Assembly (NCBI GenBank): GCA_963854735.1
Contig: OY978097.1
Coordinates: 1,364,001-1,428,000 of the forward strand
Direction of reading: 5' to 3'
From: Marvania coccoides
Taxonomy: Eukaryota; Chlorophyta; Trebouxiophyceae; Chlorellales; Chlorellaceae
DNA length: 64,000 nt
The translations under genes and the position numbers were made by a program. This document shows positions 4,493 through 50,776 of this stretch, piece after piece (position 1 is the first letter of the stretch; each line of letters starts with the position of its first letter). The notes under the pieces were generated by a model. That model was not told where the DNA came from. It ran no database searches and saw only the letters and a list, made by a program, of their open reading frames with translations.

Positions 4493-7400
4493 TCATCCTT
4501 TTGCAGCCAACAGCGCTTCGAGCCGCTCCACTTTCGCCTCCTCTTGCCCCAAGCACACCAGGAGGTCCTCCATCGCTGCAGACGCGTCCGCCTCCGCTTC
4601 CTCTCTCACTGCCTTGACGAGCGCCTCAACATCATCAGCAGACATCCTACCGTTCCGCACCACCACTGGCGCAGGCTCAGGGGGGTGGGCGAGCGCCTTG
4701 TCCAAGCGAGCCTGCAGCTCCGAGGCCTGGGCATCCAGCGAGGTGTACTCATTAGACAGCGCCTCCAGGTCCGCTTCTGCTTTTGCCAGCGCCATTTGCG
4801 CCCTCTCCGCTTGCGCTCTCGCATCCTTCGCATCACGCTCCAGTCGCACATTTGCATCCTTCAGCCGCTGCACCTCGCTTTGAAGGGCTTTGAACTCCGC
4901 TTGGCTGCCTGTGGGAGAAGGCGATGCGGCAGGGGAAGATGGTGGCTGTGGGTGGCCGTATTGCTGCTGAGAGGGGGGCGGAGGTGGGGAAGGCGCAAAT
5001 AACGGCGGCATGGACGGGGGTGGGGGAGGATGAGCCGCTCCAGGAGCTCTGCAAAAAAACAAAGCCCGAGCGCAAAAGATGGTAAACGCAAGGAAAATAT
5101 CGAATAACTATACATGTGCTTTGACAAACCTCGGGGATAGACCATTCTGGGCTACATGAAGTGCAGGAGCCTGCGCCTGGGTGGCAGGCGGAGCGGCGGC
5201 AGTGTGGTGCTGCGGTGCGCTGTAAGGCAGCGCCTGAAAGCAGTTGGAAAAGGACGAAGCCGTTGTTTTCTTCTTCAACGCTACGTTACCACCTCCACGC
5301 ATACTGCTTACCTGTTGATGGTACTGCTGCAGTTGCTGTTGCTGGATCTGCCCATTGCCGTTTGCCGTCGTCAGGGCATTCATAGAGTACTGAACGCGCG
5401 CCACGGCATCTGCGAGCCACGCTGACCGGCCCGTGGGCTGTACTGCGCTACTCAACGCGCCCGTGAGCTTCTCCAGCGCTTTCCCATACCGCTGCAGCGT
5501 GATTTGCTCCACCACCGCCTTGGTCAGCGTTTTGGGGTCCACAGCAGCGTTGGGCGGGGCGAAAATGCAGCACAGTCCGATCAACACCGCACATATCCCG
5601 CACACTACGTCGCCATTGGCCCCAAACTTGCCTTCGCTCATCACCGCCCCCACCAGGAACGGCGTTCTACTGATGCTCTGCAAGAAATCTCCCACTGCGG
5701 GCGGAAACCCCGGCAGGAGGGCCAGCAGCAGCGTGCCAAAACTCGCCACCAGCTCCTGGCCCTCGAGGTCTGCGCCGTGCTTCATCACTGAGGTCGCAAG
5801 GCGGCGGGCGCAGGCGCCAACAACGCTGCCCGCCGGCTGAGGCAGCGCCGTGCCCAGCATCGCCTGCTTGGCGGCTTCGTTCTTCATCACCAGCAGTGTA
5901 AGCGTCGCTGCCGCTCTGCTGCTGGTCAGCAGGTCTGCCAGGCTGTCCTGCAGGGAGAGGGCCTGGAACAAGCTTCCGCTCTGTGCCGCCAGCTGCGCCT
6001 TTAACACGCTGCTCTGCGCGGCGGGGGTGGCGACGCTCGCAAAGAAATCGCCGGCGGCTTGCCTTCCAGCTGCGAGCGGGCTGGCGAACGACTCTTGGAT
6101 GGCTGCTTGCACCAGAGGCACTTTTATTCCGCGAGAAATTACAGCTGGAAAGTCCGCCAGGGTGGCTTGCTGGGCGGGTCCGGCCACCTTGGCAGCAGCC
6201 GTTGCGAGGCAGCTCCACGCTGCGGCGCGCACAGGGGACGGACTCATGGAGTGCGCCGCGAAAGTTGCCAGCATTTGCGCGACCCCGTCTGCCTGTTGTT
6301 TGATGCTGTCGGCAGGGCAGGCTTGCAGCACGTCCAGCGCCGCGGCGAGATTGCTGGCGCGCTCTGGGGACATGCCGCTTGCCTCCCCTGGCAGCGCCTG
6401 CGCCTCTTTTTTCAGCACTTGCAGCAATGTCGTTTGAAAGCCTAGCTCAGCGAACATGCGTTGGTTGGGTTGGTTGCCGCGCAAAAGATTGCAAGTGAGC
6501 TGCAGGCAGTCCAGCACCACGATGCCCCCCGTCATAAAATCCTCTTCCCTGCATCAATGCGCGCATCGGGGTTGGGGGGGGGGTTGGGGTTTGGGGTTTG
6601 GGGGGGGGGGGGGGGGGTTGAGCAGCGATATGGAAAGAATGAGTCATTAAAGGCATTAGAAACTTGCCGCATGACGCTAAAGAGCTTGTCAAAGCAGCCG
6701 CTGAACGCTGCGACCTTTTGTGCGTCTGGGTTGCCTGCCACCAGCTTGTGTAGTATGAGCAGCGCTTCGTTTCTCATCACCTCAGAGTCGCCCACCATCT
6801 CCACAAGCTGTGCTACCCCCGTTGGAAGCTTTAAAATAGCCTAGCAAAATGGATGGAAAAGTAAAGAAAGTAAAAATGAGATACTCATCATTATCTGTCT
6901 GTTCACTAAGACAAGACAGCATAGGGAAGGGTACTAGAAGAGAAATAATTATGGTTGCTCGCCTGTTGGGCAAAAACTGCGTTGGCCTCCAGCAGGCCGT
7001 GGAGAATCTGCAGGATAATGAATTTGATATGCATTCCGTCTGCGTTCTTGGGAAAGGGCACCTCCAGGAGCGCGAGAAGCATTGGGACGGCTCCCTCGGT
7101 GCGGGCAAACTGCTCGGCGTTGACGGCCGCAGCTCGGGCCCTCTGTGAGGGTTAAAATAGATACTTAATGAAAGAAATTAATGGCTAGAACCTCAAGTAT
7201 AGAATTAGATGAAGCAGCGCGCACCTGCGGGTCTCTGTCAGTCTCGTCAGGAGAGACGGCAGCGGCAATGCACTCCAGCCCCGTCCGAACGACCGTCATA
7301 TCGTCCCTATCCATCTGGATCGCGCCGCAAACGGTTGGGAAGCCGATGCTGGCGAAGGCTGACTGCGCGTTGGGGTCCTCCACGACAGCATCGCGCAGGC

Positions 7401-7533
7401 CTTGGAGCGCCTCTCTTCGATCTTCGACCACCACGCTCTCGCCCACGCGCTGAATGAGGTTGTTCACCACAGCTTCCTGCTCAGCTCTCTGATTATTCAC
7501 CTGTGCCTTTATAAAGTTCTTCAGGCCCAGCAT
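4493..7533 (-). CDS. p115/Uso1-type vesicle tethering factor (golgin candidate 6)
   Basis: Cytosolic/Golgi membrane tether for ER-to-Golgi vesicles. Exons on the minus strand: 7533..7225, 7142..6963, 6840..6668, 6548..5312, 5233..5130, 5048..4493, about 852 aa. The N-terminal armadillo-like head matches the plant golgin candidate 6 pattern (DDRRxAL...; EVMRNEALLIL; VLDCLQL.CNLLR). A Pro-rich hinge follows, then a short coiled coil and the end block DLLVCLGQEEAKVERL diagnostic of the family. The coiled coil is much shorter than in animal p115. Two introns require GC donors: CAG|GCGAGC at 6962 and CG|GCAAGT at 6667. Only these restore the frame and the conserved alignment. The 78-nt intron 5311..5234 is in frame and stop-free, so it may be retained. 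The third intron contains a poly(G)/(C) tract. Confidence 0.88.
6568..6617 (+). repeat. Poly(G) / GGGGTTT tract inside a p115 intron
   Basis: A G-rich run with short TTTGGGG-like units ends in about 18 consecutive G (6600-6617). It lies within the GC-AG intron 6549..6667 of the minus-strand p115 gene. The pre-mRNA is therefore C-rich and the template strand is G-rich and quadruplex-capable. Homopolymer length is uncertain in assemblies. Confidence 0.85.
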
Positions 7534-8475
7534 TTTTGGTTTGTATTTTGAATTTAACTTTATTGATTGAAATTATTGTGAGTAGCAAAGGAATCTCGAA
7601 GTGCCTGCGGCATAGTTTCTCCCTTTTTCATAAAGACGTGAAGGATGCATTTATAGCTCCAGTCTGTACAACACTGAGGCTTTTTTGCAGCCAAGTCAGC
7701 TCAAGTTGACTGAAGAATTCTCTCTCATTCCTCTTTATTTTATTCGGGGCAATATACGATTCAAAGAGCCCAGAAGAGCTTCTGCTGCCCTTATCTTCAT
7801 CAGCAGGGATAATAAATGCGAGAGAAAAAAGAGGGCGAGGCGACGGCAAGCATGCCTTCCTTCTCTTTCGCTCCTTGTGCACTTTATAATGCAGCTTGTG
7901 TTTGACAATGCATTGACCTGTCTTCTTTGAATTTTTATGACGTTTTCAATGCAGTAAGCTCGGTATTGACGCAAAGTGGTCGTCGCTGAGCATTGGTTGT
8001 CTTTCCACTCAAGATCTAGTAGTTTTTTTGCCTGTCTTTTCGAAATGGAGAGGGCTTCCAGTGATCACAATTTATCACAGCTGTTAAAATATCTGTATGG
8101 GGCAAACAGGCAGGATTCTTCTTCCCGGAAGAAGCAATCTTGATATGTGTGGCCGACTGTGTCTGGAAGAGGAGACTCAGGATAAACGATTCCATGCAGC
8201 GTGTGTGAGCAGCAATGGTTGCCATAATCTAGAATTTTCAGAATTTCAAGTAAACAAACTTCGTCCTACGTGGCGTCTCATGTCATCGAGACCATAATCT
8301 GCGTATCCCACCCCCCTCCTCTTCTCCGCAAACCCTTCACTTTTCGCACAAACCTAATTATATTCAATCTTCAAACAACCCCGATTGCTGATCAAGACCA
8401 CATACAAAGGAGCCTAGCTCCCTGTCAACTCTCTAACTCTCCGGCATCGGCAAATCCTCGGTGTCGGTGTCAACA
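7534..8475. other. Divergent promoter region, p115 / PPDK
   Basis: AT-rich, about 940 bp between two head-to-head genes. It must hold both promoters and 5' UTRs. No coding frame with gene-like composition, RNA gene or repeat seen. A C-rich segment around 8310-8340 precedes the PPDK start. Confidence 0.5.
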
Positions 8476-11400
8476 ATGACAACCAGCGCTTCAAAGGTAT
8501 TTTAACATCAAATATTTTCAGTTGTAGACGCCCGGTTCCGTGGTAGCAAAGGTTTTTCTGGCCATAGATGATGTTGATGATCTTGTTCCGCGTCCCCTCC
8601 AAAATATCCTCACGCACGTTTCGGAGATAATCCGGTTCATTACTTTTGACGTATGCATTTTCATCTCGCTACATTCAATCTTGATTTATTTCGGTTCTGC
8701 CAAAAATCACATCGTTTTTTGTGCTCTCGCAGCAGCGTGTCTATACCTTTATCAAGGGCAAATCTGATGGCACCAAGAGCATGAAAGAACTCTTGGGTGG
8801 CAAAGGTACGATTTGGGAGTCATTAACGTCCAAGCTTGCCTCTCGGCTTGATGCTCAAGCTCAAGTGTGACTGAATTGAATGGAAACCCACAGTTTCTTC
8901 CTTTTTTTTTATGTCGACCATATTTAAACGTATTGACTTCTTTTCATGCAGGCGCCAATCTGTGCGAGATGGCCACCATTGGACTGAACGTCCCTGCCGG
9001 CTTCACCATCACCACTGAGGTGTGCCAGCAGTTCTTCAACGCCGGTGAGCCAGTTTTACTTTGTTTCTTATTGATTCCCTACCACCAAACACAACCCAAA
9101 TGCCACTTAGCTGCACTAAATCCCTTCATTCTCCCCCTCCCTCCCTCTGAAACTGCAGGCGGCAAGCTCCCCGATGGCCTGTGGGAGGAGGTCGTCGCCG
9201 CTCTGACGGAAGTGGAAGCCTCCTGGGCCGCCGACCCCGCCCAGGGCGCCCCCAAGTTCGGCGACGCCACCAACCCCCTGCTCATCTCCGTGCGCTCCGG
9301 CGCCGCGCTGTCCATGCCCGGCATGATGAACACCGCCCTCAACGTTGGCCTCAACGACGAGACTATCAAGGGATTCGCCGCCAAGCACGGCGAGCGCTTC
9401 GCCCTCGACTGCTACCGCCGCCTGCTCGACATGTTCGGCGACATCGTGCTGGGTATCGACCACGCCGAGTTCGAGGAGGAGATTGCCGCCGTCAAAAACG
9501 CCCACGGCTACAGCTACGACGTTGAGCTGCAGACCGAGGACCTGCGCGAGGTAGTGCAGCGCTACAAGGGCGTGTTCAAGAAAGAGGGCAAAGAGCTGCC
9601 CCAGGACCCCTACGAGCAGCTGCGCATGTGCATCAGCGCCGTGTTCCGTTCCTGGCACACCCCTCGTGCCGTCAAGTACCGCGAAATCAACAAGATCACA
9701 GGGCTGATGGGCACCGCCGTCAACGTGCAGTCCATGGTGTACGGCAACCGCAACGACGACTGCGGCACCGGCGTCTGCTTCACCCGCAACCCTGCCACCG
9801 GTGAGCCCGGCCTGTACGGCGAGTTCTTGGTGAACGCCCAGGGAGAGGACGTGGTGGCGGGCATCCGCACCCCGCTGCCCGTGGCCCAGATGGCTACTGC
9901 CTTCCCCCAGGCCTACAAGGACCTCGTGGTTAACACCACCGCCCTGGAGAACCACATGCGCGACATGCAGGCAAGTATTTTTTGCTGACAAAAGTAGTAA
10001 TTAAAAACTAATTCTATAATTCAGAGTTGGTGTTCCTTTAATTTCTGGTATTTGTTGTCACATTTAGTACCCTCGTTTTGTTGTTCATCTTTCCTTTTTG
10101 CAGGACTGCGAGTTCACCGTTCAGGACGGTGTGCTGTTCATGCTGCAGACCCGCAACGGCAAGCGCACGGGCCCCGCTGCCCTGCGCATCGCCGTGGACC
10201 TTGAGAAAGAGGTGGGCCCTACAAATATAGCATTTCCTAAAATATTTTAAAAATCTATTCTCTCCTTGCAATTTCACTATTCCCGAGAAGCACCCGCGGA
10301 AAAATCTTGGGGAACCCACGAGCTGCATTGCATAGTTCCACTCTCGCAATGTTTACTTTTGTTTTTAATTTTCCCCTCCCCTTCTTTATTTTGATCTCCC
10401 GGCAGGGCCTGGTATCCAAGGAGGACGCCGTCCTGATGGTGGAGCCCCGCCACCTGGACCAGCTGCTCCACCCCATGTTTGCCAACGCTGCCGGTGCAGA
10501 GTACAAAAACTCGGTCATCGGACACGGACTGCCCGCCTCCCCGGGCGCGGCCTGCGGCCGCGTCGTTTTCACCGCCGACGAGGCCGAGGAGTGGAAGAAG
10601 AACGGCGAAGCCGTGATCCTGCTCCGTACCGAGACCTCGCCCGAGGACGTTGGCGGCATGCACGCTGCCCAGGGCATCCTCACCGCGCGCGGAGGCATGA
10701 CCTCCCACGCCGCCGTGGTGGCCCGCGGCTGGGGCAAGCCGTGCGTGTGTGGCTGCGAGTCTCTGGACGTTGACTACTCCACCAAGACTGCCCAGCTCAA
10801 GGGCGCCACGCTGAAGGAGGGCGACTGGCTGTCCCTTAACGGAACCACCGGAGAGGTGTTGCAGGGCAAGCAGCCCACCAAGGCTCCCGAGCTGGCTGGC
10901 GACATGGGGCTGTTCATGTCGTGGGTGGACGAGGCCCGCCGTCTCAAGGTGCTGACCAACGCCGACACGCCGGAGGACGCCCAAGCCGCGCGCAACAACG
11001 GCGCCCAGGGCATTGGGCTGGTCCGCACCGAGCACATGTTCTTCGCCAGCGCCGAGCGCATCAGTGCGGTCAGAAACATGATTGCCGCCGAGGAGTTGGA
11101 GATGTCTTCGTCAGCGTAAGTTTTTTTTAATTTTCTTATTTTCCACACGCGAGACCATCTGGGGATCACCATCAACGAGCCATCGCCTGTCTCGGCCTCA
11201 GCTACGTTGGCGGCCTCAAATGATATTTATTTATTTTCCTATGCATTCTCTTTTATATTCATTTGGTAAATTTATAATACACTCGCTCTCTTTTCCCTTT
11301 TCTTATTCACTTTATACTGCAGTGAGGAGGCCCTGGCCGCCCTGCAGCAGTTCCAGCGCAGCGACTTCATCGGCATCTTCGAAGCGATGGACGGCCTGCC

Positions 11401-12253
11401 TGTTACCATTCGGCTGTTGGATCCCCCGCTCCACGAGTTCCTGCCTCATGATGGCCCTGCTCTGGACAAGCTGTGCGAGAACCTTCTGCAGCAGTACCAC
11501 TCCAAGAAGGGGCAGCACCTAATGGCGCACAAGGTCCTCAAGGCCAAGCTGGCTGGCCTGGACGAGGCCAACCCCATGCTGGGCCTGCGTGGCTGCCGCC
11601 TGGGCATCGTGCACCCCGACATCACCAAGATGCAGGCCAAGGCCATCCTGGAGGCGGCCGTTGACGTTGCCAAGCGTGGCATCGTGGTCAGCCCCCACAT
11701 CATGATCCCCCTGGTGGCTTTTGAAGAGGAGCTCGACAACCAGGTTCGGGTTGTGCGCGATGCCGCCAAGGAGGTGTTTGATGCTGCTGGCATGAGCGTC
11801 GATTATAAAGTAGGCACGATGATTGAGATTCCCCGCGCTTGCCTCGTGGCTGGACAGCTGGCCAAGCAGGCCGAGTTTTTCAGCGTTGGCTCCAACGATC
11901 TGACCCAGATGGGCCTGGGACAGTCCCGCGATGACGCCGAGGCCAAGTTCTTGCCGCAGTACATCAAGAAGGGCATCATTGCAGCCGATCCGTTCGAGAG
12001 CCTGGATGTGCTGGGAATCGGAGAGCTCGTGAAGATTGCAGTGGAGCGAGGCCGCGCTGCCCGACCTGGCATGTCCATTGGCATTTGCGGTGAGCACGGC
12101 GGCGATCCCAAGTCCATTGCTTTCTTTGAGAGCGCAAATCTGGACTACGTCAGCTGCTCCCCGCTGCGTGTGCCCATCGCCCGTCTGGCGGCGGCCCAGG
12201 CCAGCATCATCTCCAAGAAGAAGGGTGACAAGCTGGCGCACTGCCAAGACTAG
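8476..12253 (+). CDS. PPDK: Pyruvate, phosphate dikinase
   Basis: Interconverts pyruvate + ATP + Pi with phosphoenolpyruvate + AMP + PPi (EC 2.7.9.1). Exons: 8476..8496 (least certain), 8733..8805, 8952..9044, 9159..9970, 10104..10211, 10406..11115, 11323..12253, giving 915 aa in one frame, the usual length. The N-terminal ATP-grasp domain has [16 protein letters not shown] and [14 protein letters not shown]. The swivelling phosphohistidine domain has [18 protein letters not shown], where the His is phosphorylated and the nearby Thr is the site used by the plant regulatory protein. The C-terminal PEP-binding barrel has [21 protein letters not shown] and GICGEHGGD. Little sequence precedes the core, so I infer a cytosolic enzyme. 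The intron 9971..10103 begins CAG|GCAAGT, a GC donor, because DMQ must join DCEFTVQ. Confidence 0.95.
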
Positions 12254-13270
12254 ATATTTGAATTGCAAAATGCGTGGTGCCTCTCTTCTGAATTCAAGAG
12301 AGGACTAGAACTTGCTATGAACCTTACTATCCATACTATACGTTTTTTTTAATGAATACATTTACTGCCTTTTGTTCGATTGCCCTTTGATTGAGAGCGC
12401 ATGCAGAAGTAGTAGCGTAGCGTCCATCAAATGAGCAATTTTCTATGCATGCTTTGCTGATATTAAAACAAATGAGTAGCGAATTCTTTTCTTTTCTCTG
12501 GTGTGTTTATTTGATATGATAAAAGCTTGTTTAACGAAACCCAAGCAAACACAAAATTGAAGCAGATTGAGGTGGGCGGGGATGGGCAGCTTAACTATTC
12601 TAAACAGGAGCTCATGTCATGAAATAAAAGGTCGTCATTCGAGCGGAGCAAGCATGGCACTGACTTGCCAGTGCGGATAGATGCAGATATGAATTTCTGG
12701 GTCGCTGAGGAGCACAGTGACAACGGCGATGACACTGATGGCTACTTCATGTTGCGCTTTTTCGCCGGCGCTGCATGGCACATGCCTGCAATAATGGAAT
12801 GGTAACAAAGTCTTTGGAGCATTGCGCGAGTGGAAAAGGCTGTCGGAGAGAGACGCGATGGCAAAAAAGCGATGGAAAAAATTAAGCTATTGACGTCTGG
12901 TCGCATACGGATAAGATGTTTGGTTGTTCCCGGCACACAATGATGTATTTAAATGGCATTTCAGATGACGGCATCGTCCAAATTTTTAAATTCCGGAGGA
13001 AAAGAATTTGGTTTGGAAAATAGCAGATGGCATCCTGAGCTGTATAATTAAAACTAAATAAAGAAATAAACGAGAACTTTTATAAGCCCTATATCGAGTT
13101 TATTGCAATCCAGTCCGCAGAGGACGAGTTTTAACTTAAAACGAATAATTCAATCTTGAAATTTAATATGAACTCCTCTCAATCGAACCAGGAGCACAGC
13201 GGTGCGTTTGCTATAGTTTGCATCATGATCGAAATTGGATATATCGAACTGGAGGGCTCGTCGCTGCCAA
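12254..13270. other. Intergenic, about 1 kb
   Basis: AT-rich. Holds the PPDK 3' UTR and the upstream region of the coiled-coil gene. No gene-like frame, RNA gene or repeat recognised. Confidence 0.5.
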
Positions 13271-21308: not shown

Positions 21309-22497
21309 TCACCACAAGCTGTCTGTAGAAACTCGCTGCAGCTTGCGCGTCCTAAAGTACGAGTGCCGCGGTTTGGGCTTCTTTCCGCCGGTGCTCATCA
21401 ATTTTGTCAGGGACGGCTGCTGCACATCGCCCTCCTCCTCGCACTCCCACTCCACCTGGGCGCAGTTTTTCTCCATCAGGGTCGTGCACGTGCCCCATGA
21501 GAACCGCACGTGGCCTTGGTACCTACAGATTATCTATTCGAAATATTTCAACTGAGTGTTACCAAATTTTTTTTCGAACAAATAAATAATGGACACGCAC
21601 CCGAAGGTGGGCTCGATGTTGCTCTCGAGCCAGGCCTTTGTGGCGGGGTCAGCTGGGTACCCTGATCCACATGCAGCGCCCTCAGTCATCTCCACTAGTG
21701 ACCTGTCCCGAGTGACCTTGGCCACGATGGAGGCAGCGCTGACGATGGGGAACAGCGCGTCGGCCTTGGGGCACACCGTGAATTGAATCCCGGGGAAATG
21801 GCTCGACAGTTTCTGCTTGTAGCTGTCAGCGGCGCCCACAGTATCGACGTAGCTGCAAAAAAAATAAAAAGATGAAAGAGAAAACGAGATTAAAGTTGAA
21901 GTGAAATTACTGAAACTTTTAATATTACTATTTCGCATTGATTGATGATTTGCATTCATACATTTCTTGGAGGTTGACCCCTGCTGCCAGCACAGCGCTG
22001 ATGAGCCTGCAGGTGGACTCTGCCGCCATTGCATTTAAACTGACGCGCTGCCTGCCGAGCATGGCACCCGATATTGCGGTGGCGCTGATCTCGTCCACAA
22101 AGTAGCCCATCTTGCTGTCGTTCTGGATCTGATCGAAGAGCGTGTCTCGCCGCTCGGCGGTGAGCGTCTTTGAGTCGGCAAAGGAACTGCAAATGCATTG
22201 TGAGGAAGGGAGGTAATGAGACGCCTGCTGCCACAGATACAAGCATGTTCACAGCCTTAAACTCGCCTTTTCTTCAGGGCATCTGCCTCTGAGAGGGGCG
22301 CAAAGGCGCAGGCGTAGACCATTGAGCCGAGGACAGGACCACGCCCAGCCTCATCTGCGAAGCAACGAAGTATTCATTGGTTCATTGCGAATAGTAAGGC
22401 TGCGTCAATCGTGCTGTGAGAGTGCAAACTGACCGACTCCGAGCAAACATGGCTTTTTGAACCACGGTTGATGAGCTAATCCAGGGGCCGAGGTCAT
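21309..22497 (-). CDS. RNASEH2A: Ribonuclease H2 subunit A (catalytic)
   Basis: Catalytic subunit of nuclear RNase H2, which cuts RNA in RNA:DNA hybrids and removes misincorporated ribonucleotides. Exons on the minus strand: 22497..22434, 22354..22267, 22186..21962, 21852..21601, 21522..21309, total 843 nt, 280 aa. The catalytic motif DEAGRG starts at residue 22 (split over intron 1). FADSKTLTAERRD, VDTVG and SAASIVAKVTRDR follow, and VRFSWGTC sits near the C-terminus, all as expected for type 2 RNase H. The second intron (22266..22187) needs a GC donor, AAAG|GCGAGT. The available GT site would put FADSKTL out of frame. Divergent from ZNHIT2 with a 200-bp shared spacer. Confidence 0.95.
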
Positions 22498-38934: not shown

Positions 38935-39279
38935 GCGGGCCTGCACATGGTGCAAAAAAGGCATTTAAACCAGCTCATCTCAGCCAACAAAGATGAGCAT
39001 GCAGCAACAAAAACACACTTCTGCTTCGCTCATTTCTGCAATTTGTTTTGAAGTCCTCGACGGGCGGCTTTGCCGCCCGTCAGGGCCACCCATTGAGAAC
39101 TTTTGAAGTAACATATATCGAGATTTTTTTTAAAAGCGATTCGATGAGCATACACCAAGTTTTTTTCACAGAGCAAATTTTTTAGAGCGCAGTTTTTTTT
39201 AAAAGCTTTCACGCATCTGGCATTTTTTGAATTATTTTTACATATTTTCTTTCTGGAAGCTGCACGGTTGGGCAGCTAT
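38935..39279. promoter_or_regulatory. Divergent spacer, ELP3 / FolD
   Basis: 344 bp between head-to-head start codons. It contains a GC-rich hairpin-like stretch at about 39056-39082 (GACGGGCGGC...GCCGCCCGTC, a perfect inverted repeat) and then A/T runs. Both promoters must lie here. Confidence 0.5.
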
Positions 39280-41037: not shown

Positions 41038-43231
41038 TCACGCTGCCATGAATTTCTCGTGGAAGTTCTTGAACTTTTGGGCAAAGTCGGCAATCTTCTC
41101 CTCGGGCGGCAAAATCTGCACACACGCACAAAGCACACATCATGTTTACCACCATCCACACACGCATTTAATACCCTTATTTGTCCAATATTCATCTTTC
41201 TTTTTCTCACCGTGGTGCGCATGTGGAAGGTTCCCGGCTCCTGTCCGAATCCAGCGCCAGGCACTGTGACGATGCCCGTCTCCTCCAGCAGCGCCAGGCA
41301 GTAGTAGGTGTCGGGGGTTTTGCCGGCGGCCTTGGCGGCCTCGATGGCCTTGGGGGGGAGGTGGAGGCGGGGGAAGGAGTACATGGCGCCCTCGGTGAAG
41401 TTGCAGGTCACGCCCTCCAGCGAATTGAATGTGTCGGTCATCAGGTGGGCGCGGCGAGTCAGCGACGCCAGTCCCTCAGTCATTTCCTTGTTGTGCTGCT
41501 CATACGATTCGTCCCCGGGCTTGGGGGGGTTCACCATGAGGCTCATCATCACCTGGCCCACGGTGTTGGGCGACAGGTTGACCGAGGCCACCTTGTACAT
41601 CTCGTCGATGGTGCCGGGGTGGAAGTTGGTGAACTCGACGTAGCCGCCACGCAGGCCGCACTCTCCCAGCACGCCCTTGGACACAGTGTGGAAGGAGGCG
41701 AGCTCGACGGTGGAGGCGTAGGGCTCGCCCAGGTCGCCGAGGATCTTCTTGGCGGACACGAAAGGCTTCTCAGTCTGGTACACGTTGGGCTGCAAAAAAT
41801 ATGGAGTGGAGGGTAAGGGTGAGGGACGTGTGCACGGTGATGATAGCTGGGGTGTTATTTTCATGCTCTAAAAAACTATCGAAATATTATTTGATGCATT
41901 AAAGAATGCACACACGATTCCTGGATTCCAATCAAATACCACACATTGGTGTCTCTTAGCTCACCTGGTAGACCTCATCTGCCAGCAGCACCAGCCCCTC
42001 ATCGGCAGCCAGCTTCACCAGCTCCTTCAGGTTGTCAGCGGTGAGGCACTGCCCCGTGGGGTTTCCGGGGTTGATGAACACGATGGCACGCACGTTGGTG
42101 CCCTTGGCGCGGGCGTCGTGGATGGATTTGCGCACCGCCTCGATGTCCATGCCCCACCCAGCGTCCTCCTTGAGGTCGTACGGCAGCAGGGTGCCACCGT
42201 ACAGTTGAATGGAGGCGGAGTAGAGGGGGTACTGGGGGATGGGCACCAGCACGGCGTCATTCTCGTTGCGGATGACCGCGTTGAGGACGTAGCGCACGGA
42301 GACTGAGGCGCCGTCGGTGAGGAAAATGTTGTCTGCGCTGGAGGGGTAGCCGTCGCGGGCGGCGATGAAGTCGGCGACTTCTTGACGCACGGCGGGGGCG
42401 CCGCGGGAGTCGGTGTAGGCGCCTACGGCGCCTCCAAACTGCTTGTTGATCTGCTTGGCGCGGGCGATGGCGTCGGCGGGGAACATCTCGTTAACCTTGG
42501 GATGGTCGAACAGGAAGGGGGCGCACACCAGGGACAGCACCTGACGGTTGAAGGTCACGGGCTTCTCGCCCAACTGCTGCGGGTTGCCGACTGCAGGTTG
42601 GCAAGAAAAAAAGAGTCGAAATAAGCAAAAAAAAATTATCCAGATTCGTTTATCCACAAAATCTAGCAGTTTCTGACTTGCTGAAAAAATATATTTTATT
42701 CAAAATGAAGTGAAGGGAGGAGACTCGCCGTTGGTGTAGATGATCTCCCGGCCCTGGCCAGCCAGCTCAACAGCCTTGTTGTACAGCTCTCCACGCACGG
42801 CATACTGCGCCTTGAGAATGTTGGGGTTGAGGGTTGAGGGGTGCAGGGCGTACCCCTCGATGCGGTTGGGGTTGCCGGCGTCGGGGGCAGGCTGGGGGAC
42901 GGCGGAGTAGGCGCGGACGGTGCTGTACACGGTCTTAGCCCCAGGTTGGACCTGGCCATAGTGGTAATTGAAAGAGAACACGAGTAAAACACGGGAATTT
43001 TGATCGAATACGATGGATCAGAGGGAAAGTGTTGGAGATGCAGGGAAGTGATTGTGGGAGATCATTGTCAGCTGGGGACCAAAGCTCCAACACTTTTCCC
43101 CATCGGATTCTTCATGCTGGCCTCACCTCAGAGGCCGTCATTGCGGAGCAGGAGGCCGCATTGCTGCGCAGGGAGGAGGTGAGGAGGTTTCCAAACCTCT
43201 GTGCCTTCTTGGCGTGGCAAAGGATGCACAT
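41038..43231 (-). CDS. Alanine aminotransferase, probably mitochondrial
   Basis: PLP enzyme interconverting alanine + 2-oxoglutarate and pyruvate + glutamate (EC 2.6.1.2). Exons on the minus strand: 43231..43127, 42951..42729, 42590..41965, 41789..41211, 41115..41038, 536 aa. The N-terminus (MCILCHAKKAQRFGNLLTSS, then SLRSNAAS) is basic and Ser-rich, like a mitochondrial presequence. Family blocks are NPNILKAQYAVRGELYNKA, YTNVGNPQQLGEKP, FLTDGASVSVR, INPGNPTGQCL and VLLADEVYQ, with the PLP lysine in SFHTVSKG (about K356). RGGYVEFTNF follows. The second intron (42728..42591) starts AACG|GCGAGT, a GC donor. Only this gives YTNVGNPQ. The related glutamate:glyoxylate aminotransferase is the main alternative. 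Confidence 0.93.
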
Positions 43232-43524
43232 CGAGGCTGGTGATTGCCTCAATAGAACAAAATAAAGAATATTAATGAAAATTTAGCTAGAATGGTGGGA
43301 GGTGGTAGTTTTTCCAAAAAAAACATCAGACGCAGCGTACGCGAGCGTCCAGATTTTTCAATATAGACTATTTCGACAAGTATGGCTATTTTGATAAGTA
43401 ATTTGCATTGTTTCATACAAACAACGGTCCAACGCACGAGACAGTGGCCGTCAGCCTGAAAACACACAATTTTATTTTTTTATAATTTAATCGAAAGTTT
43501 GTTGGCTCTTTGCTCGCCTGACAA
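43232..43524. promoter_or_regulatory. Divergent spacer, AlaAT / DBR1
   Basis: 292 bp between opposite start codons, AT-rich on the DBR1 side. It must contain both promoters. No motif recognised with confidence. Confidence 0.4.
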
Positions 43525-45084
43525 ATGGCTGAAAATAAGCGTAGAGGCCTCAGAGTACGCCATCACGCCTGTCGAGCTCCGCATTCGACTCCCCCCCCTC
43601 CTGCTCGTCACATCACTATTATTTGCTGCAGATTGCCGTCCAAGGGTGCGCCCACGGGGACCTGGACAAGATCTACGAGACCCTGGCCTTCATCGAGCAG
43701 CGCGATGGCGAGAAAATCGACCTGTTGCTGTGTTGCGGCGACTTTCAGGCGGTGCGCAACCTGGACGACCTGGAATGCATGGCATGCCCCGCAAAGTATC
43801 GCCACCTAGGCACATTTTACAAGTACTACTCGGGGGAGAAAGTGGCGCCCTACCCCACCCTATTCAGTAAGTCCTTTTCCTATTTCAGCTACCAAAACGA
43901 AAAATGTTTGAGGGGTGAAGAAATGCTTTATAAATTCCTGAAAAGTACCCAACTGATCAGCTTTCCAACCTGCGTAACTTTGAATACCAGTTGGCGGTAA
44001 CCACGAAGCTTCCAACCATCTATGGGAGCTGTACCCCGGCGGGTGGGTGGCGCCCAACATTTACTTCCTGGGCTATGCTGGGGTGGTACGGTTCGGGGGC
44101 ATCAGAATTGCAGGTATGTCGGGCATCTACAAGTCCGACCATTTCACCTGGGGCCATTTTGAACGGCCCCCTTACAACGATTCAACCATGCGCAGCGCGT
44201 ACCACATCAGAGCCCTTGAAGTTAACCGCTTGATGCGCCTGCGGCAGCCGCTGGACGTGTTTTTATCGCACGACTGGCCCACGGGCATCGCGCGCCACGG
44301 TGATGTCAACGCTTTGCTGCAGCGGAAGCGGTTTTTGCAGCGGGAGGTTGAAGACGGCTCGCTGGGCAGCCCGCCGCTGGCACAGCTGCTGTCCACGCTG
44401 CGCCCCGCGCACTGGTTTTCTGCGCACCTCCACACCAAGTTCGCGGCCCTGGTGAGGCACCCAGGGGGCGGAGAAACCAGATTTTTGGCGCTGGACAAGT
44501 GCCTCCCCAGGCGGCAATTTCTGCAAGTTATCCACTTCCCAGACGCCGAGGGGCCGTTGGAATTTGCGTACGACGCGGAGTGGCTGGCGGTGCTGCAGAA
44601 AACGCACGCGTTGACGTGTTTGGCCCAGCGAACGCCGGTGCTGCCGCGGCCAGAGCCTGTGGCGAATGAGCAGCTAGGGCAGGCTCGCGCGGCGCTGGAG
44701 AGGGCGGGCGGTGGCGGCAAGGTGCCGGAAAACTTCCAAGTGACGGCGCCAGCGCACTCTGGGCCGGAAATTCTGCGGGGAAGGATGCCGCGCGAGAGTC
44801 TGCGAAATCCTCAAACTGTGGCGTTCTATGAGATGTTGGGGCTGCCGTACAACCTGGAGAACAGCTGGACAGCTGGCGCGGCGCTCCCGCCACCAGCAGC
44901 GGCAGAACCCAACCCAGAGGAGATAGATTTGGGGGTTGACGATTTTGACGACACTGATGCTCCAGAATCGACAGCATATGCAGGAGAACTGAACCCTGAA
45001 GAGATTGAACTGGAGGACGAAGAGGCAGTGCCCCCCGCGACCATAGACCCCGCGCTGCAAGCGGTGCTGCAAAGCCCTTCATGA
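43525..45084 (+). CDS. DBR1: RNA lariat debranching enzyme
   Basis: Metallophosphoesterase that opens the 2',5' branch of excised intron lariats in the nucleus. Exons 43525..43554, 43632..43866, 43991..45084, 452 aa. The tiny first exon [10 protein letters not shown] joins [18 protein letters not shown] in phase 0. Metal-binding and catalytic motifs are [37 protein letters not shown] and [13 protein letters not shown], all standard. The lariat-recognition region around residues 125-150 includes [22 protein letters not shown]. The C-terminal tail carries two NPEEI(D/E)L acidic repeats. A (TA)n repeat follows the stop. Confidence 0.95.
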
Positions 45085-45119
45085 TAAAATATAATAATGC
45101 TTTTGTCATGATGATAATT

Positions 45120-45122
<3 letters not shown>

Positions 45123-45150
<28 letters not shown>
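45123..45150 (+). repeat. (AT)n microsatellite
   Basis: About 14 AT units followed by T7, in the 164-bp gap between the convergent DBR1 and prefoldin genes. Confidence 0.95.
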
Positions 45151-45153
<3 letters not shown>

Positions 45154-45248
45154 TTTAACGAATGAAAATTTGCAAGTAAGAAAAGTAGTTGTTTTCTATT
45201 ATTCATGAAAGTTCCATATCACAAAAGGGCATATGAAAAAAAATCACG

Positions 45249-45788
45249 TCATTTCTGCTGCTCCTGTTTCTCCATCAGCAGCGACTCTATCTGCTGGAGG
45301 TGGTTGCGTCTTGTCTGCATGATTTGTCCCAGCTGATCCATCTTGCCCTTCACCAGCATCACCTTGCGGCGGCAGTAGTCAATGCCACCGTCGATATCCT
45401 TCTGCAGCATCAGGCCCATCGTCAATAAAATAATAAGCAATGGGGATTGTGCATACATAATGAAGAAAAATAAGTAGTAATGCAACTCTAATAAACTTGC
45501 CTCGATAAAGTATCCAGTGCCGATTTCCAAGAGCACTGTGCCCACGCTCTCCAGGGTGCCTGGGACGTACAACGACTCTGTCATGGGCAGAAGCATCGAC
45601 TGCCCCTCCTGCTGCTCCTTCAGGGCCTCCACGCTTTGGCCTGCGTTGGCAAAGCGGGCGGCCGTCTGCTGCAGCGCCACCATGTTGCTCGTGAAGCTCT
45701 CCACCTGCGAGGTCAGCTCCTGGTGCAAGTTTTGCAACTCGGACGCGCCCAACTGCGTGATGTCCACCTGCTGCTGCTGCCGTGCCAT
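45249..45788 (-). CDS. PFD5: Prefoldin subunit 5 (alpha-type)
   Basis: Subunit of the cytosolic/nuclear prefoldin hexamer that hands actin and tubulin to the chaperonin CCT. Two exons on the minus strand: 45788..45501 and 45401..45249, 146 aa, the normal size. Helical arm, then MTESLYVPGTLESVGTVLLEIGTGYFIE (the double beta-hairpin signature), then KDIDGGIDYCRRKVMLVKGKMDQL and a second helical arm. The intron (45500..45402) begins GAG|GCAAGT and ends CAG, a GC-AG intron. It is 99 nt and stop-free. If retained it would insert 33 hydrophobic residues inside the second arm. Confidence 0.92.
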   Translation of the reverse strand: MARQQQQVDITQLGASELQNLHQELTSQVESFTSNMVALQQTAARFANAGQSVEALKEQQEGQSMLLPMTESLYVPGTLESVGTVLLEIGTGYFIEASLLELHYYLFFFIMYAQSPLLIILLTMGLMLQKDIDGGIDYCRRKVMLVKGKMDQLGQIMQTRRNHLQQIESLLMEKQEQQK

Positions 45789-46082
45789 CTTGGGCCGCAA
45801 AGTTTGATTGAAGTCAAAGGATTGGAAATGATCAAGTCAAGCGGTGGGCTGGGAAGGTGGCTGGGCGGCACTGCACAGGTGCCTGGACGTCAGTTTGAAA
45901 ATTTACAAGTTTTGACTGAAGCAGAAAGCCCCGCAGCGAGCCAGTTGACCTCCAGCGGTACAAATGATGGGGAAAAACATGTACATTTCAAAGAATTATC
46001 TCAAAACCTTTACTTTCTGTAAGTTTTTCTGTATTACATCATCAATTTTAAACACTTTTGACGGATTGGCTCGGTGCCCAGC

Positions 46083-49000
46083 ATGCATCGCTCCTCTGCC
46101 GTCACGCTCAAAGCGCTGTCATCTCTGCCCAAACCATTTGGAGAAGAACTCCAGCAGCTGCTGAGCTTGAGATCATGGAACTCCGCAGTTAATTTTGTGG
46201 GGGAGTCGCTGCGGGGCTGCGGGGGTCGCCTGGGCCGCAGCTACGCCTCTTTGCCAGCCGAGGCGGAGACCCCAGACAGGGCAGCTAGGCCCGCAAGCAG
46301 GGGCCACCCGCCGCGACAAAGGACGCAAAGTTCAAACCCGCAGCAGGGAAGCCGCCCCCCGCAGCAAAATGTGCAAGGAGGCCGGCCTGCTGGCGGTGGC
46401 GAGAGGGGGCCCAGCTCAAACTTTTCAGGCAGACCAAATCAAAACCAAGGGCCTCACCAACGTCAAGGTAGTGGAGGCGGATCTTTCTCTGGGCGGCCAA
46501 ACCAGGGCCAATTTCAGCGGCCAGGCGAGCAGCGGAGCGGCAACGGCGGCGGCGGCGGCAGCGGAGGGCCTTCCTCTGGGCGGCCGAATCAAATCCAGGG
46601 ACCCTACCAGCGGCAAGCGGCCCAGCGTAGCGTCGACGGAGGCAGAGCGCCGTCCTCTTCTTCTAATGCTGGCCGGCCCAACCAAGGGCCCTACCACCAG
46701 CGGCAGGCAGACCAGAGAGGGTCCAGCGGCGGGGGCAGCGGGGGACCTTACTCTGCAAGGGCAAACCAGGGTCAATTTCAACGCCCGGGGGAGCAGCGGA
46801 GCGGCGGCGGTGGTGGTGGCGGCGGCGGGCCTTATTCTGGCCGTCCGAATCAGAATCAGGGGCCTTACCAGCGACAAAGCGATCAACGCAGCGGTGCAGG
46901 GGGGGCTTCTTCCCCGTTCCCAGGCCGGCCAGGTCAAAACCAGGGGTCCTATCAGCGGCAGGGCGACCAAAGGGCCCCCGGCGCTGGCAGCGGCGGGAAC
47001 CAACGCTGGCAGCCAAATGGGCGCCCCAATATGGCGCAGCAGCAGCAACAGCAGCGCCCAGGTGAAGGGAACACGGTTGGCGGCAGCGGCGGCGGCGGAA
47101 ATTCGCGATGGCAGCCTCAAGGGCAGCAGCAGCAAACGGGGGGGCGGCCGCAGCATGGAGGATTCCGCCAAGGCCAGTCGCAGCAACAGCAACAACAAAC
47201 GCCGATGCGACCACGGAAGCCTGCGGTGCGGCCCGTGCCGTGGTGGGAGAAGCAGAAGAAGGACGGGTCAGCTGCGGCCGGAGCGGAGCAGCTGCAGCAG
47301 CCAGACGCGCAGCGGCAGCAGGGCGGCCCTGTCCCCCGGCCGGTACCTTGGTGGGAGCGCAAGCCGGGGGTGATGCAGCAGCAGGGCGGCAGGACCAATC
47401 AGCAGCAACAGCGCAGGCCTATTGTGCCGAAGGAGCCGGAGCCGGTTGTCATCCCCGACGGCGTTACCCTCAGCCGCCTGGCACACCTCTTAGGTGAGTT
47501 TTCCCTCTCATATTGTGCTGTATAATTGACGCTACCTGTTTTATTATCTCCACCGTCCTTTAAATAGCATCTAAACCTATGTGTCAAGACTCAACCATCC
47601 ATCTGTTCGTCATTGATTTAATTTTGCAGGGGTGGGAGTGAAGGAACTGGAGAAGGTGCTGACCGACCTGGGCGACCCCCCTCGCAGCGACGAGGACGCG
47701 GTGGCCCCCGACTCGGTGGAGCTGGCAGCGCTGGAGCTGGGCAAGACCATAGTGCTGGCACCGCCCGTCGGGGGAAAAAAAGCGGCAGCAGCAGCCAAGG
47801 CAGCAGCAGCCTCCGGGTTGGCGCTTACGCCCCGCCCGGCCGTCGTCACCGTCATGGGCCACGTTGACCACGGCAAGACGACTCTGCTGGACGTTTTGCG
47901 AAAGACGAGCGTGGCGGCCAAAGAGTCGGGGGGCATTACGCAGCACGTGGGCGCGTTCGAAGTGGCCATGCCTGGCTGCGGCGCTGCGCTGACGTTCCTT
48001 GACACCCCGGGGCATGCCGCGTTCAGCGCCATGCGCGCGAGAGGAGCAGCGGTGACGGATTTGGTGGTTTTGGTGGTGGCCGCAGACGACGGTGTGATGC
48101 CGCAGACGCGGGAGGCGCTGGCGCACGCTGTATCCGCTGGGTGCCCCATCGTGGTGGCCATCACCAAGTGCGACGCCCCTGCTGCCAACCCTGAGAAAGT
48201 TCGTCGGCAGCTTTCCACTGCTGGCGTCCTATTGGAGGGCATGGGGGGGTCAGTGCAGGTGATCGAGGTGTCGGCGGTGTCGGGGAAGGGGCTGGCGGAG
48301 CTGGAGGAGGCGCTGATGCTGGAGGGAGAGATGCTGGAGCTGGCTGCTGACCCAGAGGTGCCGGCAATGGCGACTGTGATTGAAGCCCGCATGGACAGGG
48401 GGCAAGGCCCCGTGGCGACGGTGATCGTCACCCGCGGCACGCTGCGGGTGGGGCAGCCCATCGTGGTGGGCTCTGAGTGGGGCAAAGTGAGGGCCATTAA
48501 GACGTGCGCCGGCGATGCAGCGGGGGCGGCAGGAGTGACCCCTGGCCGCCCCGCGGAGGTGATGGGACTGAAGCAGCTGCCGATGGCGGGAGATGAGCTC
48601 ATGTCGGTGGCCTCCGAGGAGCGCGCGCAGCGCATCAGCAAAGCGAGGACCGACCGATCGGAGTGGACTCGCCGGGCTGGGCTGGGCGCCCTAAACGACG
48701 CTTCTGCGCAGGGCGGGGGCGTGGACGGCGAAGAGGAGCAGCGCACCATCCCCATCGTCATCAAAGCGGACGTGCAGGGGTCGGCAGAGGCGGTTCGCGA
48801 TGCCATCAACAACCTCAGCAGCAAAGCGGTGCAGATCAAAGTCATCCACGCGGGCGTGGGGCCCGTGTCACTGTCGGACGTCACCCTGGCAGTGCCTTCC
48901 AGCGCCAAGGTGCTGGGGTTCAACGTAAAGGTGGCAGCAGACGCTGAGTCGGAGGCCAAAATGCACGGAGTGCAGGTGCTCACCCGTCGTGTGATTTACG

Positions 49001-49347
49001 AGCTGCTGGGGGACGTGGCGGCCATGGTGGAGGGCGCCACCCCCCGCCCGCTTCAAGAGGTGGTGCTAGGGTCAGCCCAGGTGATGGCCACCTTCCAGGT
49101 GACTGTGAAGGGGCGGGAGCGGCGGTTGATCGCCGGTTGCCGCGTGTCTGAGGGGTCTATGAAGTCGGGGATGCGGGTCAAGGTGGTGCGGGGTGGGGAG
49201 ACTGTGGCGGAGGGTTTGTGCGATTCGCTGCGGCGACACAAGTTGGACGTTGATGCAGTGGGGCAGGGCACGGAGTGTGGGCTGGGGCTTGAAGGCTTCC
49301 AGGACTTCCAACAGGGGGACATTCTGCAGTGCGTGGAGATGCAGTAG
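46083..49347 (+). CDS. Organellar (probably mitochondrial) translation initiation factor IF-2
   Basis: GTPase that places formyl-Met-tRNA on organelle ribosomes. Exons 46083..47493 and 47630..49347, 1042 aa, start at the first ATG. The leader (KALSSLPKPFG...GRLGRSYAS) looks mitochondrial. About 350 residues of low-complexity Arg/Gly/Gln/Asn repeats follow, with units such as SGRPNQNQGPYQRQ, poly-Gly and poly-Gln, and two RPVPWWE(K/R) motifs. The conserved half has G1 GHVDHGKT (about 547-554), DTPGHAAF, TKCD, then the beta-barrel, IF-2 specific domain 3 (IPIVIKADVQGSAEAV) and the C-terminal tRNA-binding barrel ending GDILQC. Plastid targeting cannot be excluded. Confidence 0.93.
46330..47200 (+). 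repeat. Degenerate coding repeats (RPNQ/QRQ/Gly) in IF-2
   Basis: Imperfect tandem units around GRPNQ(N)QGPYQRQ and QFQRPGEQRSG separated by Gly-rich spacers, followed by Gln runs. The DNA is GC-rich and repetitive. Confidence 0.8.
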
Positions 49348-49447
49348 GCGAGAGGGCTGCGGCTGTGAAGTGAAGGGGGAGTTGTCGGCAGTGAGTTGTC
49401 GGCCGCCGGGCAGTGCTGCTGAGAATGCTAGGTGACTTGATTGCGGG

Positions 49448-49453
49448 AATAAA
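49448..49453 (+). terminator. Polyadenylation signal candidate (AATAAA)
   Basis: AATAAA about 100 bp downstream of the IF-2 stop codon. Confidence 0.5.
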
Positions 49454-49577
49454 AGACTCGCGCTTTACTGTTGCCATTTATTCAATTTTGATTTAATTAC
49501 ACGTGACAAAAATCAGAGGCAGTGCGATCGATTTAATTCTTGTATATTTATATACCACAAGATTGATCGAGGTCGAG

Positions 49578-50776
49578 ATGCTCACGCTGCAGCTCCCGCG
49601 CATTGTGCCGTTCACCAGCCGCAGGGCCACGACCAGATCGGTGATCATGATGGCAACGCCCGCTGGCAAGATGAAGGCGGGTTGCTGGAAGAAAAAACAT
49701 CAACGGTGCCGCCTTATGAGGAATTTTTTTCTCACATAATTTGTCTCGCTCTCTGCAGGTTGTCGTGACGGGCGCAGGCGGGCGCACTGGTGGCCTTGTC
49801 ATGAAGAAGCTCCTTGAGCGCAGCGAGGACTACTACCCGGTGGGAATTGTGCGGTCAGACAAGAGCGCAAAGCAGTTGGTGAAGTGGGGCGCTGAGGGGA
49901 AGCAGATCGTCGTGGGCGACGTGCTGACCGAGGGAGGCGAGAAAATGCTGGCCGAGGCCCTCAAGGACGCCGATAGGCTGGTTGTGTGCACCAGCGCTGT
50001 GCCCAAAATCAAGAAGCGGTCTTTGATTCCTGTCATCCTGGCTAAATTATTTAAGAAAGAGGGTGGGTTGACTGTCTATTACTGCTCTATTTCCATGCTG
50101 TCTAAAACCTTTTTTTTTGAATTTTCTTCTGCCTGCGACCTACCTTCAGGCGTGCGCCCAAAGTTCACCTTCAAAGCCAACCAAATGCCGGAGCAGATCG
50201 ACTGGCTGGGCGCGAAGATGCAGCTTGATGCCGCAAAGGCCAGCGGCGTGGAGAAGTGTAAGTTTATTTCTCCCTTTCTTTCTCGTCTTACCTTCTTCTT
50301 TACTCTGCAACTTTCTTTTTGCTTCGCAAGGCGTGGTTGTGGGCTCCATGGGCGGCACAGACCGCTCCAACTTCCTCAATACCATCGGCGACGGTGACAT
50401 TCTGGTGTGGAAGCGCCGCTCCGAGGCGTACCTCATCGCCAGCGGCCTCAACTACACAGTCATTCACCCGGGGGGGCTGAAAGACGACGCTGGGGGAGAG
50501 CGGGAGCTGGTGCTGGACGTGGACGACAACCTCATCTCCAGCGGCTCCAAGTACCGCTCCATCCCCCGCGCGGATGTGGCGGAGCTGTGCGTGCAGTGCC
50601 TCCAACTTGGTGACCGACGTGCCATTGACGTGGTGGCCAAGGCGGTTGGCGACGGCGCCCCCACCACCGACTTTGCGGCGCTGCTGGAAGACATGTCCAA
50701 GAACTGCAGCTACGAAGACATGGAGGACGATGAGGTGCTGGCCAAGGTGGCAGCGGCGCCGGTTAGAGCGAAATGA
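49578..50776 (+). CDS. Atypical short-chain dehydrogenase-like NAD(P)-binding protein
   Basis: Rossmann-fold protein of the NmrA/atypical SDR type, close to plant proteins such as At5g02240 and At2g37660 (NADP-binding, activity not firmly known, often plastid-located). Exons 49578..49676, 49759..50062, 50150..50257, 50331..50776, 318 aa. The first exon is a basic leader (RIVPFTSRRATTRS), probably a transit peptide. KVVVTGAGGRTG gives the nucleotide-binding loop. Conserved blocks are VVVGSMGGTD, GDILVWKRRSEAYL, YTVIHPGGL and IPRADVAELC. The first intron requires a GC donor (AAG|GCGGGT at 49677). The overlapping GT would shift VVVTGAGG out of frame. The other donors are GTGGGT and GTAAGT. Confidence 0.88.

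Follow-up and report, generated by a model that had tools for sequence, protein, structure and literature searches.

Predicted GC-AG introns make up about one intron in nine in the green alga Marvania coccoides and concentrate at donors with strong U1-matching flanks

The window, a 64,000-nucleotide stretch of the Marvania coccoides genome (contig OY978097.1, positions 1,364,001 to 1,428,000), carries seven predicted introns with a GC donor in six genes. The initial annotation had described them as GC-AG introns, and the sequence has all seven with the donors and acceptors that it gave:

6841..6962, minus strand: p115/USO1 intron, donor CAG|GCGAGC, acceptor TTGCTAG; ungapped USO1 alignment over AQQ|AILK
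6549..6667, minus strand: p115/USO1 intron, donor GCG|GCAAGT, poly-C tracts inside; ungapped USO1 alignment over VMR|EEDF
9971..10103, plus strand: PPDK intron, donor CAG|GCAAGT with perfect U1 flanks, donor-mask drop 11.8 nats; PPDK_N stretch over the junction
22187..22266, minus strand: RNase H2A intron, donor AAG|GCGAGT with perfect U1 flanks; RNase_HII stretch over the junction
42591..42728, minus strand: alanine aminotransferase (AlaAT) intron, donor ACG|GCGAGT; ungapped alignment with 3tcm over TN|VGNP
45402..45500, minus strand: prefoldin 5 intron of 99 nt, donor GAG|GCAAGT; Prefoldin stretch over the junction
49677..49758, plus strand: intron of the SDR, an NAD-binding (At5g02240-like) protein, donor AAG|GCGGGT, drop 5.5 nats

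Splicing of all seven introns keeps an open frame, and reading through them unspliced brings a stop or a frame change in six; the prefoldin intron stays open. Six of the seven junctions each lie within one aligned homology stretch, from Pfam for PPDK, prefoldin and RNase H2A, from USO1 for both p115 introns and from alanine aminotransferase for AlaAT (a Pfam search of the p115 and AlaAT pieces gave no match). At the first p115 intron the gene finder placed the acceptor at 6829, 12 nt further on, and homology to yeast USO1 favours 6841. The exon upstream of the PPDK intron is similar to plant PPDK. The SDR junction lies at the edge of a conserved domain and homology begins about there, making it a weaker case than the other six. 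The earlier claim that GC donors are needed inside conserved protein blocks stands for six introns and has weaker backing for the SDR. The window also encodes DBR1, as first annotated (domain at 44473-44847), with no link seen to the GC introns.

We estimated the share of GC donors with an ab initio HMM gene finder in which all 16 donor dinucleotides were left open, applied to the window together with 19 stretches drawn from 13 contigs (254 kb). The converged run gave 273 introns (221 GT, 30 GC and 22 other donors). Six GC calls were dropped as weak, four with a drop below 3 nats (L012 5061, L017 3726, L020 5764 and window 61738) and two shorter than 50 nt (L019 6002 and window 47173). The resulting strict set holds 190 GT, 24 GC and 8 other donors, so that GC accounts for 24 of 214 GT and GC introns (11.2%; Wilson interval 7.7-16.1%), and every one of the 24 is paired with an AG acceptor. 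In the window it returned exactly the seven listed introns among 54 with GT or GC (13%), in agreement with the roughly 12% first counted there, and the sample bears out a share of several per cent genome-wide among predicted introns.

The junctions are predictions, which leaves room for assembly errors, mis-set junctions or pseudogenes. We regard such an artefact as extremely improbable, since masking the donor costs at least 5.0 nats, as printed, in 23 of the 24 strict GC donors, and the other 14 dinucleotides together supply only 8 donors against 24 for GC. One aligned homology stretch also runs over 15 of the 20 strict GC junctions tested, a set that leaves aside L003 8122, L004 1569, L009 4443 and L017 3919 (the last, AAA|GCACGT, 55 nt, was retained and looks weak). 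The five junctions not spanned are those of the SDR, of DXR, whose domain begins 3 residues past the junction, of the L010 gene, whose GAF domain stops 5 residues short of it, and of the L006 5588 gene and the L011 aminotransferase-like gene, for which a family search found none. In addition, errors would not track U1 flanks, as the GC donors do. One ORF searched for homologues has reverse transcriptases as relatives, and the top PDB chains for a psbE frame on contig C15 come from organisms that point to green algae.

The share of GC depends steeply on how many of seven flank positions match U1. In the strict set it is 0/57 at four or fewer matches, 4/94 at five, 14/54 at six and 6/9 at seven. 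GC donors carry G at -1 in 23/24 cases against 139/190 for GT donors (Fisher p 0.011), G at +5 in 24/24 against 158/190 (p 0.030) and T at +6 in 17/24 against 77/190 (p 0.008). A at -2 (p = 0.08) and A at +4 (p = 0.06) lean the same way with no significant difference between GC and GT, and -3 and +3 do not differ significantly. The flanks of the GC introns are thus closer to U1 complementarity than those of GT introns, a trait of U2-type GC-AG introns, and judged from sequence they are most likely ordinary introns of the major spliceosome. Six or seven flank positions match in about 29% of donors. Roughly one in three of these is GC, enough to explain most of the 11%. The link between GC and strong flanks fits neither random decay, which the initial annotation had argued against, nor assembly error, and the latter is disfavoured as a source of the GC donors.

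A control run was given no flank information, with GC weighted equal to GT and seven of the 14 other dinucleotides as controls. At six or seven flank matches it called 17 GC and 35 GT donors, and 0 or 1 each for GA, GG, CC, AC, TC, AT and CT; at five or fewer, GC lay near the controls. The totals were 78 GC against 46-60 per control dinucleotide, and these control counts indicate that most weak-flank calls of this run are noise.

At perfect flanks, GC is commoner than GT. Genome-wide, MAG|GCRAGT occurs 902 times against 341 for its reversed control pattern, whereas MAG|GTRAGT occurs 333 times against 553. Only 3 of the 190 strict GT donors match at all seven flank positions, where permutation gives an expected 12.0 (P = 0.0006). 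Inside the 254 kb perfect-flank donors are few (6 GC, 3 GT), and we sampled 20 GC and 20 GT perfect-flank loci, picked by hand from across the first 100 listed places per pattern (GC all on C1, GT on C1 to C3) and thus not a random draw. The full model called 12 GC donors, one of them with no acceptor inside its stretch, and 6 GT donors; the flank-blind model called 5 and 3. Scaled up, GC would make up about 81-84% of perfect-flank donors (95% interval 72-92%, 70-92% without the acceptor-less locus, 57-94% flank-blind). It would make up 63% if all 333 GT matches were donors and the control were subtracted from GC. Perfect-flank GT matches were donors in 3/4 cases inside the 254 kb vs 6/20 in the sampled loci.

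We then considered whether the U1 or U6 sequence itself reads GC. The initial annotation had suspected a spliceosome tolerant of GC on either side and had pointed to the U1 5' end and to U1-C and LUC7. U1, U2 and U6 genes are all present. The single U1 match at E <= 0.001, among 41 scored of 431 first-look candidates, from which a very divergent variant could escape, carries the canonical ACUUACCUG 5' end, so that a C at +2 faces A7 as a mismatch. No U1 carrying a G at position 7 (ACUUGCCUG), which would pair with GC, was found among those 41 candidates, and a U1 that reads GC is therefore disfavoured. Both U6 copies have ACAGAGA, and U1-C is ordinary, aligning to human U1-C over 50 residues (a second zf-U1 match lies on L026). 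The earlier suggestion is thus borne out only in part: a U1 or U6 whose sequence reads GC gains no support, and tolerance alone leaves the small number of perfect GT sites unexplained.

Tolerance of +2C beyond U1 pairing, brought about by U1 snRNP proteins, RNA modification or active-site contacts that proofread +2U, is possible if on the doubtful side. The GC share exceeds the human 0.87% (PMC11732430) about thirteenfold, the GAUCANGAAG loop that the Rfam consensus has in U1 stem-loop 1 is missing (no U1 with this loop was seen at 6-34 bases spacing), only one LUC7 gene was found, and Iwata and Gotoh likewise suspected base modification or U1 proteins (PMC3033335). However, the U1 5' end, the U6 ACAGAGA, U1-C, SNRNP27, U1-70K and a Methyltransf_10 (METTL16 family) gene are all present, and in its simple form tolerance predicts no drop in perfect GT sites.

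The excess of GC over GT at perfect flanks, together with the scarcity of perfect GT sites, suggests a limit on U1 pairing rather than tolerance alone. We consider it somewhat probable that a canonical U1 reads those donors whose overall pairing falls within a band of strength, with +2C allowed in sites that would otherwise be too tight; tolerance can coexist with such a band. At its floor, +2C would mispair with U1 A7, and a GC donor would be viable only if nearly all other positions pair. At its ceiling, donors pairing with U1 at every position would be disfavoured, presumably since U6 must displace U1; there a +2 mismatch would be harmless or helpful, and T could be replaced by C. The later, catalytic steps of splicing would accept +2C readily. 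We infer that the pattern results from the stability of the U1 duplex and from U1 release. The number of U1 pairs out of eight, +2 included, averages 5.87 for GT and 6.08 for GC donors with a mode of 6 in both, and the match number is under-dispersed (variance 0.80 vs 1.29). Nearest-neighbour energies show weaker pairing for GC than for GT donors (mean -5.0 vs -6.8 kcal/mol, p = 0.0002). With the T restored, only 4 of the 24 would pair more tightly than 95% of GT donors do, although the median of the 24, -9.6, falls in the tightest quarter. The energies thus speak more for the floor than for the ceiling. Exon and intron sides compensate each other in human donors (PMC11732430), and such compensation could thin perfect GT sites without a ceiling on U1. 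A stronger version, in which a fully U1-complementary context prefers GC since a U1 snRNP with its unusual stem-loop 1 and single LUC7 found frees fully paired sites poorly, and the +2 mismatch is positively selected, seems unlikely.

Composition offers another account, in which T drifts to C at +2 under genomic GC pressure and GC survives where strong flanks compensate. Genomic GC has been linked to the GC-AG share (PMC3033335), and at six and seven matches together GC makes up 20/63 (32%), not above the 40% neutral expectation from intron composition. Yet the genome has a moderate GC content (about 55%, with 51-60% across the stretches read) and lacks the high G+C of other algal genomes rich in GC-AG introns; its introns have 37-38%. 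In the strict set GC and GT introns show no difference in length, in their own GC content (p = 0.97) or in that of the flanking exons (p = 0.78). Composition accounts neither for a GC share exceeding 40% where flanks are perfect nor for the scarcity of perfect GT sites. We find this account doubtful, and GC pressure as sole cause is disfavoured by the moderate genome GC and that share. A role in regulated or alternative splicing as the reason why GC donors are kept, which has been put forward for mammals (PMC2490688), is highly unlikely here, given that the GC introns resemble GT introns in length and composition and that many lie in genes of apparently housekeeping kind.

A share of about 1%, cited in the initial annotation for most plants and animals, holds for those groups but not for some algae: GC-AG introns reach 39.6% in Aureococcus, 22.2% in Micromonas pusilla and 7.7% in Chlorella sp., an enigma in the words of Iwata and Gotoh in 2011 (PMC3033335). 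Marvania resembles the GC-rich algae in a GC-AG share far above 1%, in showing no difference in intron length and in a canonical U1 5' end, the latter for those of their genomes that were checked; their genomes have 66-70% GC, compared with about 55% here, where introns are AT-rich. Neither the flank dependence nor the inversion at the perfect consensus appears in the portions of that paper covered. Human and mammalian GC-AG introns have the same -1G and +5G consensus and flanks nearer consensus than GT donors (PMC11732430, PMC2490688), at 0.87% in human against about 11% here. In Eurytemora and Oikopleura one non-canonical donor is likewise raised genome-wide with conserved AG and A flanks (PMC7072748), yet it is GA, which is at background here. 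While high GC-AG shares were already known in other algae, no report of an inverted perfect donor consensus was seen in the covered parts of the open-licence PMC literature.

In Marvania, GC takes the place of GT at the start of roughly one in nine predicted introns; gene finders restricted to GT would misread about that fraction in this genome. In a compact genome of 22.5 Mb, the GC excess follows something that can be measured, the U1 pairing of the remaining site, which makes a floor and ceiling on U1 pairing directly testable.

We examined the seven introns for which the initial annotation had called GC-AG boundaries, in p115 (two), PPDK, RNase H2A, AlaAT, prefoldin 5 and SDR, and found all of them in place. 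Splicing at the GC keeps a single open frame in all seven, while in six of them the unspliced reading runs into a stop or shifts frame; the exception is the prefoldin intron, which is 99 nt long and open if read through. In six of the seven, the junction is spanned by a single aligned stretch of a known family: those of PPDK, prefoldin and RNase H2A in Pfam alignments, both p115 junctions ungapped in the alignment to yeast USO1, and that of AlaAT ungapped in the alignment to alanine aminotransferase, the Pfam search having assigned no family to the pieces from p115 and AlaAT. At SDR, the conserved domain begins about where the junction falls, and support there comes from the coding signal. Other features of the window are as follows.

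6574-6583 and 6600-6617, C on the minus strand: poly-C tracts, both within a GC-AG intron; further tracts, likewise in introns or other noncoding DNA, lie at 1922-1940 of the U1-70K locus (L033) and upstream of U6 in L023
31310-33262, plus strand: open frame of 650 codons, probably a non-LTR retrotransposon, with reverse transcriptases (PF00078) as relatives, the best 51% identical

The window corresponds to C1:1364001-1428000; the genome comprises 22.46 Mb in 15 contigs, 13 of 0.9 to 3.4 Mb, one of 49 kb and one of 99.9 kb, the last carrying psbE and, by our reading, tilS, and therefore plastid. Using the window plus 190 kb from 19 places across the 13 large contigs (254 kb in all), we trained a gene-finding hidden Markov model covering both strands, with all 16 dinucleotides allowed as donors. 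The converged run called 273 introns, with 221 GT donors, 30 GC and at most 5 of each other dinucleotide; with equal prior weight for all 16, it called 278 (GT 183, GC 28, next AT 10). When GC was admitted as a donor next to GT, the Viterbi log score rose by 294, compared with 55 to 66 for GA, AT, GG or CC. Masking each donor in turn and requiring a cost of at least 3 nats, an AG acceptor and a length of at least 50 nt left a strict set of 190 GT, 24 GC and 8 other donors. The GC share is thus 24/214 of GT and GC donors, or 11.2% (Wilson 7.7 to 16.1%), and 7/54 within the window, where the GC introns are exactly the seven called initially; the earlier estimate of roughly 12 per cent holds. Homology supports 15 of 20 strict GC junctions tested, each spanned by a single aligned stretch: p115 twice and AlaAT from PDB chains, and 12 from Pfam, where the alignments were not printed and gaps within the stretch are hence possible.

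Within the strict set, GC introns are indistinguishable from GT introns in length (medians 129.5 versus 109.5 nt, p = 0.33), in their GC content (36.6 versus 38.0%, p = 0.97) and in that of the adjoining exons (60.2 versus 60.4%, p = 0.78). What sets them apart is the donor flanks: -1G is present in 23/24 GC and 139/190 GT donors, +5G in 24/24 and 158/190, and +6T in 17/24 and 77/190, while -2A (p = 0.08) and +4A (p = 0.06) lean the same way below significance. Scoring seven flank positions (-3 A or C, -2A, -1G, +3 purine, +4A, +5G, +6T), we found GC shares of 0/57 at four matches or fewer, 4/94 at five, 14/54 at six and 6/9 at seven. Because the model itself uses donor flanks, we repeated the run with flank information removed, each time weighting GT equally with a single further dinucleotide. 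Among sites with six or seven matches this returned 17 GC and 35 GT donors, and 0 or 1 each for GA, GG, CC, AC, TC, AT and CT. From five matches downwards GC and the controls were close (GC 5 and controls 1 to 5 at five matches, GC 9 and controls 4 to 9 at four). The totals were 78 for GC and 46 to 60 for each control, so weak-flank calls of this loose run are mostly noise.

At perfect flanks the usual ranking is inverted. In model-free whole-genome counts, MAGGCRAGT occurs 902 times against 341 for its reversed control, and MAGGTRAGT 333 times, one of these being the U1 end read on its opposite strand, against 553. Position frequencies predict 6.3% perfect GT donors; 3/190 were observed against 12.0 by permutation (P = 0.0006). 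Scaled by length, about a thousand would be expected genome-wide, compared with the 333 matches of any kind. At 20 GC and 20 GT loci, hand-picked across the first 100 listed places of each pattern, the full model called 12 and 6 donors, one of the 12 with no acceptor inside its 609-base stretch, and the flank-blind model 5 and 3. After scaling, GC accounts for 84% (72-92%) of perfect donors under the full model, 83% (70-92%) excluding the acceptor-less call, and 81% (57-94%) flank-blind; the share is still 63% if every GT match is taken as a donor and the control is subtracted from GC. Intron composition (C 0.24, T 0.36) predicts 40%. The 254 kb point the same way in small numbers, with 6 GC (10 matches) and 3 GT (4 matches). 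The deficit of MAGGTRAGT against its control is also such that strong cryptic GT donors may be avoided.

For the snRNAs, the results were as follows.

Contig C1, 2148218-2148369, minus strand (1501-1652 of the U1 locus L022): U1 snRNA match, the only one found

With 41 of 431 candidates scored, this match reached 58.8 bits, below the Rfam cut-off of 69.5; it folds as U1 (z = -3.7). It carries ...CAACUUACCUGG, which makes all nine pairing bases canonical. Aligned to Rfam, it has a UUGCAC loop in stem-loop 2, an Sm-like site AUUUUUG and, in stem-loop 1, AACAACUAAAA in place of the consensus GAUCAaGAAG, which we take to be the U1-70K site. This sole match is without the GAUCANGAAG loop, though U1-70K is encoded (L033), its RRM motifs looking intact by eye; ACTTACCTG with GATCANGAAG 6 to 34 bases downstream occurs nowhere in the genome. 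Upstream of the pairing end stands AUACUUCAACUUACCUG, which resembles AUACUUACCUG, the usual sequence, lengthened by six bases, and leaves the RNA start uncertain. A GCCCATAA motif precedes the U1 pairing end by 73 bases, UUUCUCGG in U2 (L032) by 73 and one U6 copy (L023) by 63; the second U6 copy (L024) lacks it, and the 190 kb sampled elsewhere contain just 3 occurrences. This shared, otherwise rare motif suggests that the U1 gene is working. The U6 copies are identical across 101 bases, both with ACAGAGA. The initial annotation had suggested a spliceosome tolerant of GC on its U1 or U6 side; the canonical pairing end and the conserved ACAGAGA give no support to an altered U1 or U6 sequence that would read GC.

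Among spliceosomal proteins, U1-C aligns with human U1-C across 50 residues. A Methyltransf_10 gene is encoded, of the METTL16 family, yet the family is also found in bacterial controls.

Contig C8, 694072-694996 (locus L027): LUC7 gene in two exons, the only one found

By eye, it resembles LUC7L3 more than LUC7L2, yeast Luc7 being the sole LUC7 protein in the PDB comparison; no LUC7L2-like gene was seen, although a second LUC7, if split by introns, could escape detection. SNRNP27 is encoded and keeps the methionine in MNRKGGFNRPL, taken to be the M141 that PMC10581693 connects with +4A.

Taken from sequence, the data agree with a U1 pairing window. At its floor, +2C mispairs with U1 A7; GC donors average a duplex energy of -5.0 kcal/mol, within the GT range (-10.4 to -4.0, 5-95%), and GT donors given C fall to -3.2 kcal/mol, so that the mispair would be tolerated only where flanks keep the duplex in range. 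The shortage of perfect GT and excess of perfect GC donors suggest a ceiling as well, and the U1 pair counts of both classes peak at six out of eight. The energies favour the ceiling less than the floor: once T is put back, the median of the GC donors, -9.6, falls among the tightest quarter of GT donors, but only 4/24 would be tighter than 95% of them. Compensation between exon and intron sides, known for human donors (PMC11732430), may be part of the pattern. According to the same review, +2U contributes to contacts used in proofreading, so the catalytic steps must accept +2C too.

Iwata and Gotoh (PMC3033335) give GC-AG shares of 39.6% for Aureococcus, 22.2% for Micromonas pusilla, 7.7% for Chlorella sp. 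and 2.7% for Micromonas RCC299, found the U1 end to be canonical in each of three genomes that they checked, and call the abundance an "enigma" loosely tied to genomic GC; the passages and Discussion consulted contain neither the flank threshold nor the perfect-site inversion. Compared with these algae, M. coccoides is a further high GC-AG case, but one of moderate GC content, and GC pressure alone is therefore insufficient to account for it.
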